Positions 9,295 to 26,731 of a stretch of DNA of 41,995 bases are shown here, piece by piece. The notes beneath the pieces were generated by a model, which made no database searches, was not told the origin of the DNA, and saw nothing but the letters and a program-made list of their open reading frames with translations. Position 1 is the stretch's first letter; every line of letters starts with the position of its first letter. The translations under genes and the position numbers were made by a program. The stretch spans positions 1 to 41,995 of the forward strand of contig JAHJDO010000036.1 of assembly GCA_018812485.1 (NCBI GenBank). The letters run 5' to 3'. This stretch comes from a bacterium. GTDB taxonomy: Bacteria; JAHJDO01.

Positions 9295-11511
9295 TTAATT
9301 CTTAAAATCAATCGGCACCTCTGATACCGCAACCCTAAATTTACCTGAATCTGCCAAAGGAATATCATCTACAAAATCAATATTAAGTTCTGTCTTATCT
9401 CCTAAAACTTTACAGATCTCTTTCTTTAAAAAATCCAGCCTGTCTCTCTTAAGAGGCTTTTTATTTATAATCTTCAAATTAACTCTATCTTTTGATTTCT
9501 GACTCACTTGAAATTTTTCCACCTCTTCAAATTCTTTCATAAGATGCGGAAAAAATTCTCCCGGCACAAATTTTCCGTCTAATGTCTGAATAGTATCTAA
9601 TATCCTGCCCTCTACATCCTCTATCAAAGGCAAGCCTCTTCCACAATCACATTTTCTCTCACTATAAACTGCCAGATCTCCTGTCTTGTATCTAATAAAA
9701 GGCATGGCATAGTTATGCAAGTCTGTTATAACAACTTCTCCTATCTCTCCGTCTTTAACAGGCTCACCATCCTTTAAAATCTCCACATAAAGATTATCTA
9801 CGTTGAGATGCAGGCCATTATGCTTCTCACACTCTGCACCTATAAGCATAAACTCCCTGTTTCCATAAGTATTAAAGACCTTACCCCTAAAGACCTCTTC
9901 TATTAACTCTCGCTGGTATTCATAGAGTTTTTCAGCCGCACTAATAATAGATTTAACCCTGACACATTCTTTACCGCTATCTTTTATAAATTTTGCAAAG
10001 TTATAAAGTGGTGTAGTGTATCCGACAATTGCCTCTGGCTTAAACTTGTTAAGTTCCTTAAGATATTTATCCATCACTATTTTATTTAAATGGAACGAAT
10101 TCAAAATCTTTTTCCTTAATATAAAATTATGCAATAATTTCTTGTGCTTTTTAAAAATTGACTCCGCACCTATAGAAGCACCCCATATATATAGAACTTT
10201 TCTACCATCCTCGCATCCGGCCCACTTGTACCCACGCATTGCAACAGCAACCCTCCAATCATAACTATCCCTATCATGTGCAAATTGCAATGGTACACCT
10301 GTTGAACCCCCTGTTGCCTTTTTAATCAGCCGATCTCTAAAATTCTCTGCAATCATGCTCTCTCTATTATTCTTTATATCTTCCTTGGAAATAACAGGTA
10401 ATTTCCTGAAATCATCATAACTTTTCATATCTTTAGGCTTAAGTTTAAGACGTTTAAAAATCTTCTGATAATACGGCACATTCTGATAAGAGTGGTACAA
10501 AAGTAACATCAACTCTTTCTGTTGCTTCCGCAATAAATCTTCTCTTGAACACCACTGATTCTTCTCTAATTCTTTCAAATACAATAACGTCCTACGCTTT
10601 CTTAAAAATGTTTCGTAAAAAGGGAGTATCTTATCCCTAAAGAACTTCCCGTATATATTGCCCAATGTACTCTGAAATATCCGAACAATTAACCCTATAT
10701 GGTTTTTACTCAAAATACTAAACGGAGAATACAGCAATGACTTTATCTCATGTATAAATGCATCTTTTATATCGCCGTTCACAAAATACGCCCAACCTGC
10801 GTAAAAATACCGCGAACTATATACTTGCATCTTCAAAAGTACATGCCATTTTAAATGTTTCCTGATAACTGCCATCTCATTAGAAAGCATCTTTTTTGCA
10901 TTGGAAGGAGAACTAATTCCATTAGCTTCAGACCTAATCCTTACAAGTGTCTTATTTATGTACGTTGCCTTACATCTTTTACTAATCCTAATCCACATAT
11001 CCCAATCTTCCACTGCCTTAAATTCAGGCCTCTCATCAAAAAGCCCCACCCTATCTATACATTCTCTCCTAACTAAAACACTCGAATTACTAAACACATT
11101 CTTAATAAGTAATTCCTTATAGGAAATATTTCTTGTCCTTTTTATCCGACCGTTAATTGTATGGTCTTTACAACCTACCAGCCCTATTCCATCATTCATC
11201 TCTTTTATCTGCGTTTCTAATTTCTCTTTTAACCATATATCGTCCGCATCCAGAAAAGCAATATATTCACCTTTTGCCATTTTTATACCTAAATTCCTCG
11301 CACTCGCAGGCCCACCGTTTTCCTTGTATATGTATTGAATCCTATCTAAATATGGCGTAAGCACTTCTTTTGTATTATCAGTTGAACCGTCATCTATAAC
11401 TATAATCTCAGTATTTGTATAGGTCTGCTTAAAAACAGACTCCAACGCCTCTTTTATATACTTATCTGCGTTATACGTAGGAATTATTACACTAACTAAT
11501 GGTCTTTTCAT
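9295..11511 (-). CDS. Fusion: GT2 glycosyltransferase plus CapK/PaaK-like adenylate-forming domain
   Basis: Residues ~1-300 are a GT2 enzyme: SVIIPTYNADKYI, VIDDGSTDNT (39-48), AFLDADDIW (85-93) and the ED of 'AVEDWDMWIRI' (~166-176). Residues ~315-738 match the CapK/phenylacetate-CoA ligase-like family often seen in capsule loci: a 'LLYHSYQNVPYYQKIF' opening, the phosphate-binding ATGGSTGVP (399-407), FNTYGNREFMLIGAEC, and YKTGDLAVY. CapK-like proteins are usually free-standing at about 430-450 residues, so this is a full-length domain joined to a transferase. The chemistry of CapK proteins is not settled; activation of an acyl or amino-acid substituent is one idea. Start is an ATGA overlap at 11508-11511. 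Confidence 0.87.
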   Translation of the reverse strand: MKRPLVSVIIPTYNADKYIKEALESVFKQTYTNTEIIVIDDGSTDNTKEVLTPYLDRIQYIYKENGGPASARNLGIKMAKGEYIAFLDADDIWLKEKLETQIKEMNDGIGLVGCKDHTINGRIKRTRNISYKELLIKNVFSNSSVLVRRECIDRVGLFDERPEFKAVEDWDMWIRISKRCKATYINKTLVRIRSEANGISSPSNAKKMLSNEMAVIRKHLKWHVLLKMQVYSSRYFYAGWAYFVNGDIKDAFIHEIKSLLYSPFSILSKNHIGLIVRIFQSTLGNIYGKFFRDKILPFYETFLRKRRTLLYLKELEKNQWCSREDLLRKQQKELMLLLYHSYQNVPYYQKIFKRLKLKPKDMKSYDDFRKLPVISKEDIKNNRESMIAENFRDRLIKKATGGSTGVPLQFAHDRDSYDWRVAVAMRGYKWAGCEDGRKVLYIWGASIGAESIFKKHKKLLHNFILRKKILNSFHLNKIVMDKYLKELNKFKPEAIVGYTTPLYNFAKFIKDSGKECVRVKSIISAAEKLYEYQRELIEEVFRGKVFNTYGNREFMLIGAECEKHNGLHLNVDNLYVEILKDGEPVKDGEIGEVVITDLHNYAMPFIRYKTGDLAVYSERKCDCGRGLPLIEDVEGRILDTIQTLDGKFVPGEFFPHLMKEFEEVEKFQVSQKSKDRVNLKIINKKPLKRDRLDFLKKEICKVLGDKTELNIDFVDDIPLADSGKFRVAVSEVPIDFKN

Positions 11512-13985
11512 TTTTTGTCATTGCGATGCGCCTCCGGCGCAGAAGCAATCTCCCTATACATCTCAATAATCTTCTCTACCACAACATTCTCTGAAAAATT
11601 CTTTATAGCCTGCCTTCTCGCTCTTCTACCTTTATCCTTTCGATAACTCTCATCCATATATTTTTCAAGAGCCTTAGCCAATTCCCCTTCTTTACTCATA
11701 TCAATACTCTCTCCGCCATCACCTACCATCCATTCAACGACAGGATGCTTGTTTACTATTGAAGGCAATCCGGAAGAAAGCGCCTCTAAAAGTGCAATAG
11801 GCATCATTTCTTTGAGAGAGCATAAAGTAAATACATCAGCAATTCTATAAATTTCATTCATCCTCTCATGAGGAAAATCAGTCAAAAATATAAATCTATC
11901 TTTTAATTTTTTTCTAGCCATAGCCTTAAGTTCATGAGTCTGATCCGTAGAGGAGCCAGCCACAACAAGAAAGCCCTTTGTTTTAACCATTTCATTTATC
12001 AAATAATCAATCCTCTTATGAGTACTTTTTATAGCCGCAACACACAAAACCACAAAAGCATCCCCAGGAATCCCAAATCCTTCCCTCATATCCCTCCTCA
12101 CCAGATTGTAGGGGAGGTTTAAACCTCCCCTACAATCTGGTGCTGCCAAAGGCTTAAACCTTTCCGTATTCACAAAATTAGGAATAACAAACGATTTTTT
12201 CCCATTAAGCCCAGCCATCTTAGCCTCTTCAAGATGCAAAGGTGCAAGATGCTGCAGATAATCAAATTTCTTAATAAATTCAAAATCTTCCTCCGTACCA
12301 TGTGCCAAAATAACCTTTGATTTTATGAGTCCAACTTTCTTCGCTATTCTTAAAATATTTGCTACATCAGGATCCTGCGTATGAATAATATCGAATTGCT
12401 TTAGCATAGCCTCAGGAAGAAAATTGAAAGCGAATGTAGTTTGCTGCATTTGAAAAGCCGAACCTAAACCAAAATGCCAACTAAAAGACGGCAAAATGTT
12501 AAGGAGGCTTTTCGATAATCTTGAGCCACATCTAATACAAGAAATATTTTTTTCAAAACCATTCTTTTTTATTCCGCTTCCTTTATAAAGCATGATGTGT
12601 ACATATTTTTCCTTAAGGGCATGAGATAAATCATTAGCCCATGTTTCAACCCCCCGTTTAATATGTTCGAGTCCTGAAGAAATGACGCAAATGTTGAATT
12701 TTTCTTTTCTAATTGACTTATGTTTATTTTCCATTACTTCAATTGAATCCCTTATAAAACAATTCCATCGACCTACCATCTCCTTTTTATGTTCCAAGGT
12801 CTTATCCTTTACAAAATTACCATATACATGTCCTATTGCCTGAATCAAGCTATCTATATCGGATTCCACTAAATTTAAAGCGGCTTTCTTTTGACCAAAC
12901 ATTTCCATAAGTCCCTTTAATTTTTGGGCATAAAATTCATTTGCATATAAGCCTATAGTCGGCACACCATTAGACAAAGAAAATAAGCAAAAATGGTAAG
13001 AGACACCTATTGACAGACATGCTTTTTTTATAAGGCCCTGAATATTCTCGTGAGAGATATCTCCTTTATAAATTTTTATACGGCTAGATTTCTTTTTCAC
13101 TGACTCCAAGATCCTCTCTGCAGTCTCTATATCTGAATCATCTTTTCCGAAAGTAAGAGGCACAAAAAGAAAATCTTCATGCAAAAACACTTCTAACATT
13201 CTATCTATAAGCAATGCATATTTAGCCAACAAACCAGCGTTTTGAGTCGAGTAAAAGGCGAATCTGAAGTTTAAGAGTATGATTTTCTTTGACGTAGCTT
13301 TAAATGTTTCAGAATTTATATCTTTTAATGTTAAAGCATCATCTGCTGTGATATAAATATCACTCAAATCACATCCCAGCCTTTCTAATGCTTTATAAGA
13401 CTCTCTTTCTCTTAAAGAAAGTAAATTTATATTTTTTATACCTTCATTCACGATCAACCTACTAAAGGTTTTATTAATAGGTCCGATTGTCTGACCAGAA
13501 AATATCACTGGCTTATTCATAAGTCTATATAATCTAGCAAAGGCCATTTTACATATAACCGGGCCAAGCCCCATATCATTTATATTACCTCCACCAACAA
13601 CCCAGTACCCATTTGTAGCTTCAAATATTTCTGTCCAAAATTTAATGTTTCTATTTGACAACAAATGAAATTTGAATTTTCCAAAAAATTTGACATTAAT
13701 ATAAAGAAATACCATTCTTATGCCGAAAAAAAATAAAAATAACGATAACCAAAACTTACCAGAATTGCAATTAATTCTCCAATTTGGCATTTTTAATAAA
13801 TTATTATTATTATTAACAAATTTTACCCTGCTATTATGACTATGAAATTTCGGCCCTGCATTTTTATCTATTATGAAAAAGTTCCATTGCGTTTTAGTAG
13901 CTAACGTATCTACTAAATTGAACAGCATTGCATTGTCTCCAATATTTTTACAATTACCGCTATCGATTAAAATATTCATTTTCAT
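11508..13985 (-). CDS. Fusion: polysaccharide pyruvyltransferase-like domain plus GT4 glycosyltransferase, with two inserted repeats
   Basis: The 825-residue frame joins two enzymes. Residues ~1-400 match the pyruvyl-transfer family (WcaK/CsaB-like): GNCKNIGDNAM, YWVVGGGNINDMG (127-139), FSGQTIGP (162-169), LRERESYKALERLG, ADDALTL and a late 'GVSYHFCLFSLSNGVPTIGL' with the conserved His. Residues ~430-820 are GT4: SSGLEHIKRGVETWA, VILAHGTEEDF, VIPNFVNTERF, AIKSTHKRIDYL and SLKEMMPIALLEALSSG. Between the two Rossmann lobes a perfect palindrome encodes residues 615-629, an extra loop absent from normal GT4 proteins. The last 14 residues come mostly from another repeat. It likely adds a sugar and pyruvylates the chain, if both domains remain active. 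Confidence 0.85.
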   Translation of the reverse strand: MKMNILIDSGNCKNIGDNAMLFNLVDTLATKTQWNFFIIDKNAGPKFHSHNSRVKFVNNNNNLLKMPNWRINCNSGKFWLSLFLFFFGIRMVFLYINVKFFGKFKFHLLSNRNIKFWTEIFEATNGYWVVGGGNINDMGLGPVICKMAFARLYRLMNKPVIFSGQTIGPINKTFSRLIVNEGIKNINLLSLRERESYKALERLGCDLSDIYITADDALTLKDINSETFKATSKKIILLNFRFAFYSTQNAGLLAKYALLIDRMLEVFLHEDFLFVPLTFGKDDSDIETAERILESVKKKSSRIKIYKGDISHENIQGLIKKACLSIGVSYHFCLFSLSNGVPTIGLYANEFYAQKLKGLMEMFGQKKAALNLVESDIDSLIQAIGHVYGNFVKDKTLEHKKEMVGRWNCFIRDSIEVMENKHKSIRKEKFNICVISSGLEHIKRGVETWANDLSHALKEKYVHIMLYKGSGIKKNGFEKNISCIRCGSRLSKSLLNILPSFSWHFGLGSAFQMQQTTFAFNFLPEAMLKQFDIIHTQDPDVANILRIAKKVGLIKSKVILAHGTEEDFEFIKKFDYLQHLAPLHLEEAKMAGLNGKKSFVIPNFVNTERFKPLAAPDCRGGLNLPYNLVRRDMREGFGIPGDAFVVLCVAAIKSTHKRIDYLINEMVKTKGFLVVAGSSTDQTHELKAMARKKLKDRFIFLTDFPHERMNEIYRIADVFTLCSLKEMMPIALLEALSSGLPSIVNKHPVVEWMVGDGGESIDMSKEGELAKALEKYMDESYRKDKGRRARRQAIKNFSENVVVEKIIEMYREIASAPEAHRNDKK
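11517..11552. repeat. REP-like hairpin repeat forming a protein C-terminus
   Basis: Read on the minus strand, GAGATTGCTTC, a central GC-rich hairpin (TGCGCC/GGCGCA, three-base loop) and TCGCAATGAC form a unit of the widespread 'gagattgcttc...cgcaatgac' type of interspersed bacterial repeat. Outer arms ATTGC/GCAAT also pair. It supplies exactly codons 812-823 (EIASAPEAHRND) of the pyruvyltransferase-GT4 fusion and ends six bases before the ATG of the next gene. Confidence 0.75.
12099..12142. repeat. 44-bp perfect palindrome inside a glycosyltransferase gene
   Basis: The half-site AGATTGTAGGGGAGGTTT is followed at once by its exact reverse complement; the symmetry extends without mismatch from 12099 to 12142 and breaks on both sides at the next base. 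It is open in the gene's frame (codons ~615-629, PDCRGGLNLPYNLV). The sequence type (TGTAGGGG...CCCCTACA) is that of short interspersed palindromes found in many bacterial genomes. In mRNA it would form a 22-bp hairpin. Confidence 0.9.
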
Positions 13986-23007: not shown

Positions 23008-24597
23008 TTATATTTTAATAAGGGTCAAATCATTTCTCTCGGCAACAATACCTCCTAACTTTTTTATATCATTGGCCGCTTCTTTATCAACAAATTCGGG
23101 ATTCAGTAAGATATAAGAAACATTGTATTTCGATAATAATCCTCTTCTTGTTTCTTCAGAAGCATCTTCTTCAAAGAAAGCTATATTATCTATGCGTCTT
23201 TGAAGGCTATCTTCTATCAAAGGATTATCGTGTCCTTTAAGTAACGATACTACCTTTCCACTAAAGGTAGGCAATATCCACGATGTTTTTGGATCGCTCA
23301 TAACAACTTCATATGTCCCTATTTTATCTTTTAAAAAAAAGAATTTATTAACTAAACTTGGCCTTTCAGACTTGTGAAATACAATCTTATTGCCCCTTAG
23401 AGAAACAAAATCTGAGAGATATTCTTTTTTTGTTAAATTCAAATTGTAAGCCACTGCACAGATCGAAATTACTATAAAAAACGACTTGACTAAGTCCTGC
23501 TCTGTTCTGTAGAACATTGTCTGTTTTAGAGACCTTAACGAAAAAAGTTTCCATTGTCTGAATTTATAGGCAATAGCTAGATGTAAATAAAACGCTGTAA
23601 AAAATATAAAACGGCCACCAAAGGGTATCGGAAAATAATACGATATAATATAGACAGCTGAACAAGACAAAAAACAATAGGTAATAAACCAATTTTTTTT
23701 CTGTATAATAAAATTCCAAATAAAAAATATTCCCAACAACATTGGGCCTAAGCCAATAATTGCTAGTTTGGAATGAAGTGGGTGCAAAGTATGCAATAAA
23801 TTCCCTACCTGTTGCGTAGCACCAGAAGAACGTGTTGTAGAAAAGAACAACTTATACATGGAGAAATATGGCCATAAAAAACAAAAGGTTACAGACAAAA
23901 ATGGCAATAATATAACTAAAATCCGTTCTTTAAGACTTGGCCTCTTTTCAATGATAGCTAAAACTATAGTTGTCAAAAATAATAGAGTTGCAGTTGGTGG
24001 ATGACATAGAAATGTCACAAAACTCAAAAGAATGGACAAAAAATAATATCCCATCTTATGCAATCTAAGATATCTGACAATAAAATACACCCCCCATAGA
24101 AAACATGCAAAAGAAAAAGCAGAGGGATATGATAAATTATAAATCAAGGTTCTAAACTGATATGAATTACTCCATGGAAATATCCCACCCCAAAAGAATA
24201 ACATTACTATTAGCATATAAAACGGCAATTTTTTGTCTTTGAAATACTCCCTGATAAAATAATACAGCCCTGTCAAAAACATGAGAATATTAGCAATACT
24301 CGCCAATGCCATAGTTTTAAAAACATCGGATCCCGATATTTTTTTAAAAACCGCCCAGAATAATAGATAAATTGTGTATCTTGGAGAAGCTACAGTAGAA
24401 TTTATATGTGGGTTCTTAGGTGTAATAAGATTACTAGACAATTCTTTCAAACTAGCTGTATGTTCCCAAAAATCTCTTGTATATTTAAGATAAGGGTAAT
24501 TAAAAGAAGTCATACTAAAAAAGATTAATATAACAGCCGCAAGTATCCAATAGTTAAAATCCATTTTTTTAGACTTGGTCGATGTGCTATTTAACAT
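23008..24597 (-). CDS. Polytopic membrane protein, GT-C-like
   Basis: The 529-residue protein has roughly 9-11 hydrophobic helices and a soluble C-terminal ~130 residues. After the first helix a loop with YLKYTRDFWEHTASLK carries acidic residues where GT-C transferases (PMT/ArnT/GT39-like, lipid-phosphate sugar donors) have their catalytic Asp. I cannot see a further family signature, so a polymerase-like or unknown membrane role stays open. The ATG at 24597 lies inside the upstream gene with GGAGG four bases ahead. If GT-C, it would act on the periplasmic side using a polyprenyl-phosphate sugar. Confidence 0.6.
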   Translation of the reverse strand: MLNSTSTKSKKMDFNYWILAAVILIFFSMTSFNYPYLKYTRDFWEHTASLKELSSNLITPKNPHINSTVASPRYTIYLLFWAVFKKISGSDVFKTMALASIANILMFLTGLYYFIREYFKDKKLPFYMLIVMLFFWGGIFPWSNSYQFRTLIYNLSYPSAFSFACFLWGVYFIVRYLRLHKMGYYFLSILLSFVTFLCHPPTATLLFLTTIVLAIIEKRPSLKERILVILLPFLSVTFCFLWPYFSMYKLFFSTTRSSGATQQVGNLLHTLHPLHSKLAIIGLGPMLLGIFFIWNFIIQKKNWFITYCFLSCSAVYIISYYFPIPFGGRFIFFTAFYLHLAIAYKFRQWKLFSLRSLKQTMFYRTEQDLVKSFFIVISICAVAYNLNLTKKEYLSDFVSLRGNKIVFHKSERPSLVNKFFFLKDKIGTYEVVMSDPKTSWILPTFSGKVVSLLKGHDNPLIEDSLQRRIDNIAFFEEDASEETRRGLLSKYNVSYILLNPEFVDKEAANDIKKLGGIVAERNDLTLIKI

Positions 24598-26731
24598 ACT
24601 CCCTCCATACTATTTCTAATTGGCCCTTTTCTTCGGATAATTTGATTTTTATACTGCCTTGCAGGAATTCCCAAGTTTTGCCTTCTTCTAACTCTAACCC
24701 ATCTAGAGTTATCAGAACTGGTTTATTATCTGTTACTATCTCAAGATAGGTTGCATTCTTGTAGGTAACTTCAGCCCTACCTTTCTTGATTCTAGATAAA
24801 AACCATTCAGCATCTGTTAGCAATATATCGTATTTGTATCTACCTGATATAAATCTTGTACCTATAATCTCTGAATATCCTGGAAACTTAACTTTTAGCC
24901 CAATAGCTGAAGGGTACGCTGATTTATTATTGGAATTCATAACCTCTATGTTCTCCACTTCAAAATTTTCGTCATATACATCCGGCATAAAGAGCGTGAT
25001 AAATCCGACCTTTGACTTACCTTCTGAAATCATTACTAAATCAACATCCGGATCGTGAATATAACCAGCCGGAGGATATATTTCCTTGCTATCCATAATG
25101 TCTTCCTTATACCAATCTTGGTCATGTGGGTAGAAAACATCCATCTTATAGCCATCTTGTTCTAATTTAATATGACCATCTTTTAGCATAGACTGACCTT
25201 TTAAATGCCAGGTAAGAGCTGTTTTTTTATTTGTTTCCCCTTCAGCATTATCCATTACTACAAGATAACTGCTATCTCCTTTAACCAGAGTCGAAACTCT
25301 AATATGTCTCCAGCCGTGCCAATCAGTAATTTCTGTTTTGCTAATATCAGCTTCTGACATATTCTCAAAAAAAGCAACTTCAGCAAACTGAGGCGGATCT
25401 TGTTCCCAAACACTCATATCCGGAATAATCTTTGATAATAATAATGCAAATCCTCTCTTTTGAATCTGAAAACCATTTAGCCTAAATCTATCTATCCTTG
25501 TATCACGATAATCTTTGCGGCCCACAGGTACCCATTTATTTCTCTTTACAATCATATCTTCAACTACAAAAGGAACTCCATACATTAGACTTACAATACA
25601 ATTAGTCGCTTTATACTTATGCCATCCGCTATAACGCAAGTTAAGCAAGGAATACAAACTATCCTTATCCCATCCTTCTCTAAACACAATCTTATCCGGA
25701 CCAACAGGCCCTGGGTCGTGGGGAAAATTACCCGGAGCTTCTATGTAACACGATCCAATTTGCGGTGTTACAGGTTCTATCTGGTCGTCCCAAAACTTAA
25801 GCCCATAGACAAAATCAAGATCATTTTCTTTAACCAACCCTGATTTAAGCATTCTGTTTGCAAGCCATTTATAACGGCCATCAGAAAAAATATGTGTCCC
25901 CAGCATCATAGTATCAGGCATAATATGCGGATGAACATCATTATAGCCAGGTGCCATACCATTTGGCGGCCATTGTTTAAGGATCCACTCGAAAGATTTA
26001 CGACAATTCTCATTCCCCAATAAAGACAATATAGGATGATACCGAGCAGACACATAAGCATTATTAATCCATACGCCTTGATAACTTAATGAATCATCGG
26101 TATTACGAAAATTCCCCCTCCAAAGAACTGCTTTCTCCTCAACATAATCAAAACATTTCTTTGCTAATTCAGGGTATTTTTCCTTTATAATCTCACCAAA
26201 TACAGAAAGTGCCCCATATCCTATTTCCTGATTCTCATACGGACCCTGTGGTAATCTTTTAAAAGCAAAGGCATAAAGCCAATCTACCCATTCTACAGTA
26301 AAAGTCCTATCCGTTATTGCCTTAAACCATTCAACAATAATATCTTTTTCATGTTCTGTGAATAGACTAGGAATATCTTTTATATCTAAATAATAAATAC
26401 CCCTCATCATTGCTTGGTATTGAATGTATTTAACACTATGGGCTGGTTTAGAAAATTTCTTCTCTTTTGCCTCCTCTATCAAAATATTCTTAAGAGTCTT
26501 AGCATAAGAAATGTCCTCGGTTAAAATATAAGATAAAGCAACTCGATGTATTTGAAAAGATATATGGTTATTTATAAGGCCTTGTATATCCTCTTTCCGA
26601 TAAGAAACGTCCTGAGCTTTAGAGAAATCTGTAAAAGAAAATAGAAAAATAGCGCTCAAAACACTTAAAATAATATTCTTTGTTGAAAATTTCTTTTGAC
26701 CCTTCATGTTTTTCACCTTGTTTGTGTTCAT
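24587..26731 (-). CDS. Exported heparinase II/III-like polysaccharide lyase homologue
   Basis: The 714-residue protein has an N-terminal signal (~18-40, FSTKNIILSVLSAIFLFSF, cut near KAQD). Residues ~50-320 look like an alpha-helical toroid ('YGALSVFGEIIKEKYPELAKKCFDY', shortened here as an example of its hairpins); the later part is beta-rich. The join carries a heparinase II/III-type segment: VFREGWDKDSLYSLLNLR, then GWHKYKATNCIVSLMYG and VPFVVEDM. Heparinase families usually have H-x3-D at this point; here the His is kept and the expected Asp is replaced by Asn, so activity is uncertain. It would act in the periplasm, trimming or editing a uronic-acid-containing chain. It meets the flippase as an ATGA overlap. 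Confidence 0.72.
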   Translation of the reverse strand: MNTNKVKNMKGQKKFSTKNIILSVLSAIFLFSFTDFSKAQDVSYRKEDIQGLINNHISFQIHRVALSYILTEDISYAKTLKNILIEEAKEKKFSKPAHSVKYIQYQAMMRGIYYLDIKDIPSLFTEHEKDIIVEWFKAITDRTFTVEWVDWLYAFAFKRLPQGPYENQEIGYGALSVFGEIIKEKYPELAKKCFDYVEEKAVLWRGNFRNTDDSLSYQGVWINNAYVSARYHPILSLLGNENCRKSFEWILKQWPPNGMAPGYNDVHPHIMPDTMMLGTHIFSDGRYKWLANRMLKSGLVKENDLDFVYGLKFWDDQIEPVTPQIGSCYIEAPGNFPHDPGPVGPDKIVFREGWDKDSLYSLLNLRYSGWHKYKATNCIVSLMYGVPFVVEDMIVKRNKWVPVGRKDYRDTRIDRFRLNGFQIQKRGFALLLSKIIPDMSVWEQDPPQFAEVAFFENMSEADISKTEITDWHGWRHIRVSTLVKGDSSYLVVMDNAEGETNKKTALTWHLKGQSMLKDGHIKLEQDGYKMDVFYPHDQDWYKEDIMDSKEIYPPAGYIHDPDVDLVMISEGKSKVGFITLFMPDVYDENFEVENIEVMNSNNKSAYPSAIGLKVKFPGYSEIIGTRFISGRYKYDILLTDAEWFLSRIKKGRAEVTYKNATYLEIVTDNKPVLITLDGLELEEGKTWEFLQGSIKIKLSEEKGQLEIVWREYVK

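Follow-up and report, generated by a model that had tools for sequence, protein, structure and literature searches.

The window (the whole 41,995-nucleotide stretch of DNA analysed here) carries, on the minus strand at 11508–13985, an open reading frame for an 825-residue protein in which Pfam matches define a polysaccharide pyruvyl transferase domain (PS_pyruv_trans; PF04230, E 4e-25; residues 14–347; 12945–13946, minus strand) joined to a GT4 (glycosyl transferase group 1) domain (Glycos_transf_1; PF00534, E 1.8e-19; residues 630–790; 11616–12098, minus strand). The gene lies in a long polysaccharide cluster with glycosyltransferases, asparagine-synthase-like proteins, a flippase-like protein, an ABC exporter and an O-antigen-ligase-like protein; two neighbouring cluster proteins (529 and 714 residues, encoded at 23008–24597 and 24587–26731, both on the minus strand) match no Pfam family.

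Positions 12099–12142 of this gene (CACCAGATTGTAGGGGAGGTTTAAACCTCCCCTACAATCTGGTG) form a perfect 44-bp palindrome with arms of 22 bp. A check of the window sequence confirmed that, as an earlier sequence-only reading had claimed, every base pairs with its mirror. From base composition, approximately 1e-8 palindromes of this kind are expected per 42 kb, and no other even palindrome in the window has a half longer than 6 bp. The same reading took all 44 bp to be the repeat, which holds for the central 26 bp but not for the ends. The 26-bp palindromic core, GTAGGGGAGGTTTAAACCTCCCCTAC (12108–12133, no strand assigned), is a dispersed repeat unit, being the commonest palindrome in samples of two related Omnitrophota genomes, G147 and G150, and recurring in a scan of GTDB genomes. 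The outer 9-bp arms, CACCAGATT (12099–12107) and AATCTGGTG (12134–12142; neither assigned a strand), pair perfectly with one another and are locus-specific. Within the core, GTAG (12108–12111) is paired with CTAC (12130–12133), and the stem runs 9 bp further.

In the protein the palindrome corresponds to codons 615–629, and the Glycos_transf_1 domain begins right after it, at residue 630. That the frame stays open here was also noted correctly, as the open reading frame has no stop in this stretch. The accompanying idea that GT4 proteins run straight from RFKPL to REGFGIP proved wrong; homologues instead have a short linker, the length of which varies across the GT4 family. The linker of the window protein is 12–15 residues longer than in homologues, the majority of the 35 compared being clearly shorter there. 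In the closest homologue retrieved (L128, 32% identity) the linker is 15 residues (45 bp) shorter, and the main, 12-residue alignment gap falls on CRGGLNLPYNLV; from these two figures, a gain of 36 bp (the core and approximately one arm) and one of 45 bp (the whole palindrome plus 1 nt) are both possible. The proposed comparison with orthologues thus yielded homologues without the peptide, but none closer than L128, and no empty allele of the window GT4 gene (for which the single arms to seek are CACCAGAT and ATCTGGTG) was found. Likewise, no orthologue of the whole fused protein was found in 21 Omnitrophota genomes, which hold separate-domain homologues only (31–32% identity). Among solved structures only weak GT4 matches (5d00 and 2jjm) were found; these start after the insert, so the loop is not directly visible in them.

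A search for other copies in the genome of origin (G000, a 2.68-Mb MAG of 172 contigs) had been suggested, and such copies do exist, but only three are close: that in the window gene and two GGCAGG variants on the Omnitrophota-like contig C55. Two more distant relatives, of the GTAGGGGACAGG type, lie on contigs C5 and C81, and the core is absent in the four congeners of G000. Scanning GTDB species genomes for TGTAGGGSAGGTT...AACCTSCCCTACA returned 54 stretches (the core with T/A neighbours, the GGCAGG variant included), the majority in Candidatus Omnitrophota; the remainder came from two MAGs, one of Acidobacteria and one of Anaerolineaceae. With a looser pattern, palindromes were present in each of the 22 genomes tested, at 1–27 per genome, the reversed control giving 0–1. 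Searches for the core in viral contigs found none, and those in plasmids gave partial matches only (E ~1). In the close pair G147 and G150, two cores dominate the long palindromes, the window's own GTAGGGGAGGTTTAAACCTCCCCTAC (55 copies) and GTAGGGTGGGTTTAAACCCACCCTAC (38 copies); the repeat unit is accordingly 26 bp and the outer 9-bp arms of the window copy are extra. The samples of this pair hold 113 copies in 1.05 Mb, 105 intergenic and 4 in genes, with ~90% of the sequence coding; as some contigs were picked for having hits, the density cannot be extended to the genomes as a whole.

Variants of the core were also encountered. At L073:4514-4569, which is inside a gene, and at L108:6084-6139, it is nested in a second palindrome, CCCTCTCCCC...GGGGAGAGGG, with an inner 4-bp stem that differs between the loci. 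A related core, GGCAGGTT NNN AACCTGCC, is present at several loci of the Acidobacteria MAG S-RSF-IL-17 (for example L097:4694-4726); in one open reading frame of this MAG, a stretch including the peptide encoded by the palindrome occurs as a tandem duplicate (two copies of FETNLKPL..ETPRDVGQVxNLPY).

The 26-bp core contains stops in two of the three frames and, owing to its symmetry, reads the same on both strands; copies in genes therefore encode an identical peptide. The in-gene copies read RGGLNLPY or RAGLNLPY, preceded by a variable residue, with one common frame throughout. Other genes that carry the element mid-gene, named here by reading of their sequences rather than by Pfam, encode FolC, a second GT4 protein, an acyltransferase/ELM1-like fusion, and two membrane proteins resembling a polymerase/ligase and a GT39-type transferase. 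At the insertion site 18 FolC homologues in Omnitrophota have ~11 residues fewer. In the second GT4 gene (L075) the element took the place of a native stretch of similar length and is not a simple insertion. By way of warning, a peptide such as CRGGLNLPY or CRAGLNLPY in a predicted protein marks inserted mobile DNA and not a conserved protein motif.

Comparison of orthologous sites between G147 and G150 identified 14 that are filled in both genomes and up to 25 that are filled in one only, indicating fast turnover of the family. The figure of 25 is an upper bound, since at two of the sites (L267:14009/L253 and L367:19858/L242) the partner genome has a decayed or altered copy, and part of the one-sided sites may be losses. 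Clean presence/absence pairs include L090/L177, L116/L163 and L250/L310; other one-sided sites lie in indel-rich intergenic regions. With MITEs in mind, which have the terminal inverted repeats of a parent transposon and a target-site duplication, alignments of filled and empty sites were inspected and revealed no consistent target duplication; at a single site, L258:11631, there is a 13-bp direct repeat on either side.

The proposal that a REP-like mobile palindrome entered the gene in frame and was tolerated as a loop between domains is thus borne out by a family dispersed over many unrelated loci, by its presence and absence at orthologous sites in relatives, by the single open frame, and by homologues that do not have the peptide. 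We consider it probable that the 44-bp palindrome belongs to a REP-like mobile family with a 26-bp core, mainly intergenic in Omnitrophota, and that this copy was accepted in frame in the GT4 gene. On this model it would have entered the gene in the sole stop-free phase of the core, adding a net length that is a multiple of three, and would have been retained because the added loop (~12–15 residues, where the two GT lobes meet) is tolerated. Against it stand the presence of only three close copies in G000, the absence of the family from the congeners, and a nearest homologue of the window protein at no more than 32% identity.

The outer arms are perfectly complementary yet different at nearly every locus; among the 65 core matches at GTDB-scan loci, 19 have arms of at least 6 bp (0.09 expected), 1 bp of pairing having been demanded by the search itself. 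In the orthologous pair L078/L095 one arm has lengthened from 5 to 11 perfect pairs via three clustered complementary substitutions, L077, L087 and L089 differ from one another by a single compensating pair in an arm, and one core pair shows a symmetric double change. The empty allele at L090/L177 already has the left arm, the right arm being new, whereas those at L116/L163 and L250/L310 have neither arm. Asymmetric decay of arms is likewise seen at some sites. Fold-back template switching is reported to make and mend hairpins (PMC8794818), and fold-back extension is likely to be the general cause of the perfect arms, the sequences which point to it being those of other loci. The empty alleles with neither arm, the asymmetric decay and the conserved flanks of many G147 and G150 cores speak against it. 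By such a process, one flank of the window copy would have been copied onto the other during replication (by template switching at the hairpin), lengthening and mending the stem. The more ambitious proposal of a self-extending family, in which the 26-bp core inserts and the fork then back-copies a flank to give a locus-specific perfect stem, also in genes where it would create new inter-domain loops, we put forward as tentative and, on balance, rather doubtful.

Alternatively, the hairpin may have moved as a 44-bp unit together with its outer arms, in which case subfamilies would have outer stems of their own, the window copy would be a member of one of them, and template switching would not be needed; we regard this as quite plausible, albeit somewhat disfavoured. 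In G147 and G150 the core often has conserved, partly symmetric flanks (TATTGTTAATAA, TGTGGATAA, TTGAAAGTC; for example at L367:19858), and the conservation of TATTGTTAATAA and TGTGGATAA implies that longer forms of the element exist. Movement of the entire hairpin would also fit the 15-residue excess over the closest homologue, which is about the length of the entire palindrome, and the empty alleles that lack both arms. However, a second copy with the arms of the window copy was not found, arms vary at nearly every locus, and the lengthening in L078/L095 took place on the spot. With regard to the flanks themselves, several cores in loci L238–L367 (G147 and G150) are bordered by TTATCCACA / TGTGGATAA, or by TATTGTTAATAA; the TTATCCACA / TGTGGATAA flank matches the DnaA box consensus, and both types of flank could form the termini of a longer element.

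Returning to the preferred reading, of a core that moved and arms that are specific to the site, movement would be by a single-strand (HUH/Y1-type) transposase. A Y1_Tnp gene (PF01797) is present in 21 of the 22 genomes, including one in G000 on C55, so that a Y1 transposase is indeed there in the genome of origin. Family palindromes lie within ~1.5 kb of 5 of 30 Y1 loci, and no excess of flanking palindromes over background was apparent across these 30. Four of the five appear to be one conserved locus, with the order, in G147, of an S1-domain/rpsA-like gene, a palindrome, a tyrosyl-tRNA-synthetase-like gene, the Y1 gene, a palindrome, and a sugar nucleotidyltransferase-like gene. REP biology (PMC3733652) makes a Y1/RAYT mobiliser a fair guess.

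A strong RNA hairpin had also been anticipated, and the predicted fold of the transcript agrees, with a 20-bp stem of -44 kcal/mol (z -9.2), a stability equalled by none of 200 shuffled sequences. Such stability, together with the concerted changes by which pairing is maintained in the stems of some orthologous copies, could be taken as a sign of selection for an RNA element of the operon mRNA (a pause, an RNase site or an attenuator) rather than of a passenger. We think this improbable. No Rfam family matches anywhere in the window, the copies lie in unrelated genes and intergenic sites, and many are missing in a close relative; the concerted changes are explicable by template switching without selection (PMC8794818). 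That copies are scattered over unrelated loci speaks against the hairpin having a dedicated role in the GT4 gene, and the window copy there would have no dedicated function. Finally, the reading of the extra residues as an ordinary protein loop, with a palindrome due to chance or misassembly, draws on the variable GT4 linker and the metagenomic origin of the contig, but is refuted by the recurrence of the core in many independent assemblies and genomes, and has next to no probability given also the negligible chance expectation, a site 12 kb inside the contig and an intact reading frame.

The taxonomic assignment of the copies in the MAG merits caution. C55 (L028 1-6115) shares 99.97% identity across 6.1 kb with an Omnitrophota MAG contig, JAHJHC010000100 (L084), so that it is probably a misplaced contig in one of the two bins, or else reflects a very recent transfer. 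RpoB groups G000 with its congeners G002–G004, away from the sampled Omnitrophota, and tetranucleotide composition does not place the window contig (C36) in either lineage. The window contig may be Omnitrophota DNA binned with another lineage; the nature of the palindrome is unaffected by this. As side observations, C55 has an open reading frame of 2497 residues (L028:4056-11549, plus strand) that contains internal repeats and for which no Pfam match passes the cut-off (the best, DUF7229, being below it), and in G000 (L381, G000:C141:5429-6940), G003 and G004 (L369, L372) the open frame that contains rpoB runs to ~2640 residues, a length that would accommodate an rpoB–rpoC fusion and points to one in this small lineage.

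The family has features in common with several known systems. GTAG REPs are short dispersed palindromes, mostly intergenic and sometimes in genes, of genomes with Y1/RAYT-type transposases (Di Nocera et al. 2013, PMC3733652), and their tag is unpaired, at one end of the stem only (PMC3733652). The Omnitrophota family likewise consists of multi-copy, mainly intergenic short palindromes with GTAG at the stem end (with only the three close copies in the genome of origin), but its GTAG is paired with CTAC in a fully symmetric stem that continues into locus-specific arms; the window copy, in which the tag is paired, therefore falls outside the canonical GTAG REPs. Rickettsia palindromic elements (RPEs; Ogata et al.) are palindromes inserted in frame in unrelated protein-coding genes, to which they add a peptide (PMC3733652, PMC6649704), and they end in CGTC (PMC3733652). 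In-frame insertion in unrelated genes (the window GT4 gene and several others) is shared with the window family, which differs in its 26-bp core, its GTAG/CTAC symmetry and the peptide encoded. Many RPEs are longer, about 100–150 bp. An RPE identity was rejected as CGTC is at the ends neither of the core nor of the 44-bp palindrome. Coding palindromes in Nematomorpha mitochondria (PMC6649704) and template-switch hairpins (PMC8794818), for which fold-back copying in replication has been proposed as maker and mender, are inverted repeats that likewise pair perfectly and lie in coding or RNA genes; in contrast to these, the window family has a dispersed repeated core centred in each lengthened palindrome. 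The family thus works like GTAG REPs and RPEs, yet belongs to neither by their defining tags.

Intragenic REPs (PMC3733652) and coding palindromes (PMC6649704) were already known. A search of the literature on palindromes in Omnitrophota found nothing relevant and, as far as we have searched, neither the family nor its apparent centre in Omnitrophota nor its locus-specific stem extension has been described. With stems that are perfect yet locus-specific, sequence alone can serve to test fold-back template switching at mobile hairpins. Protein-coding palindromic repeats, best known in Rickettsia, now extend to uncultured Omnitrophota, where they turn over fast between close relatives.
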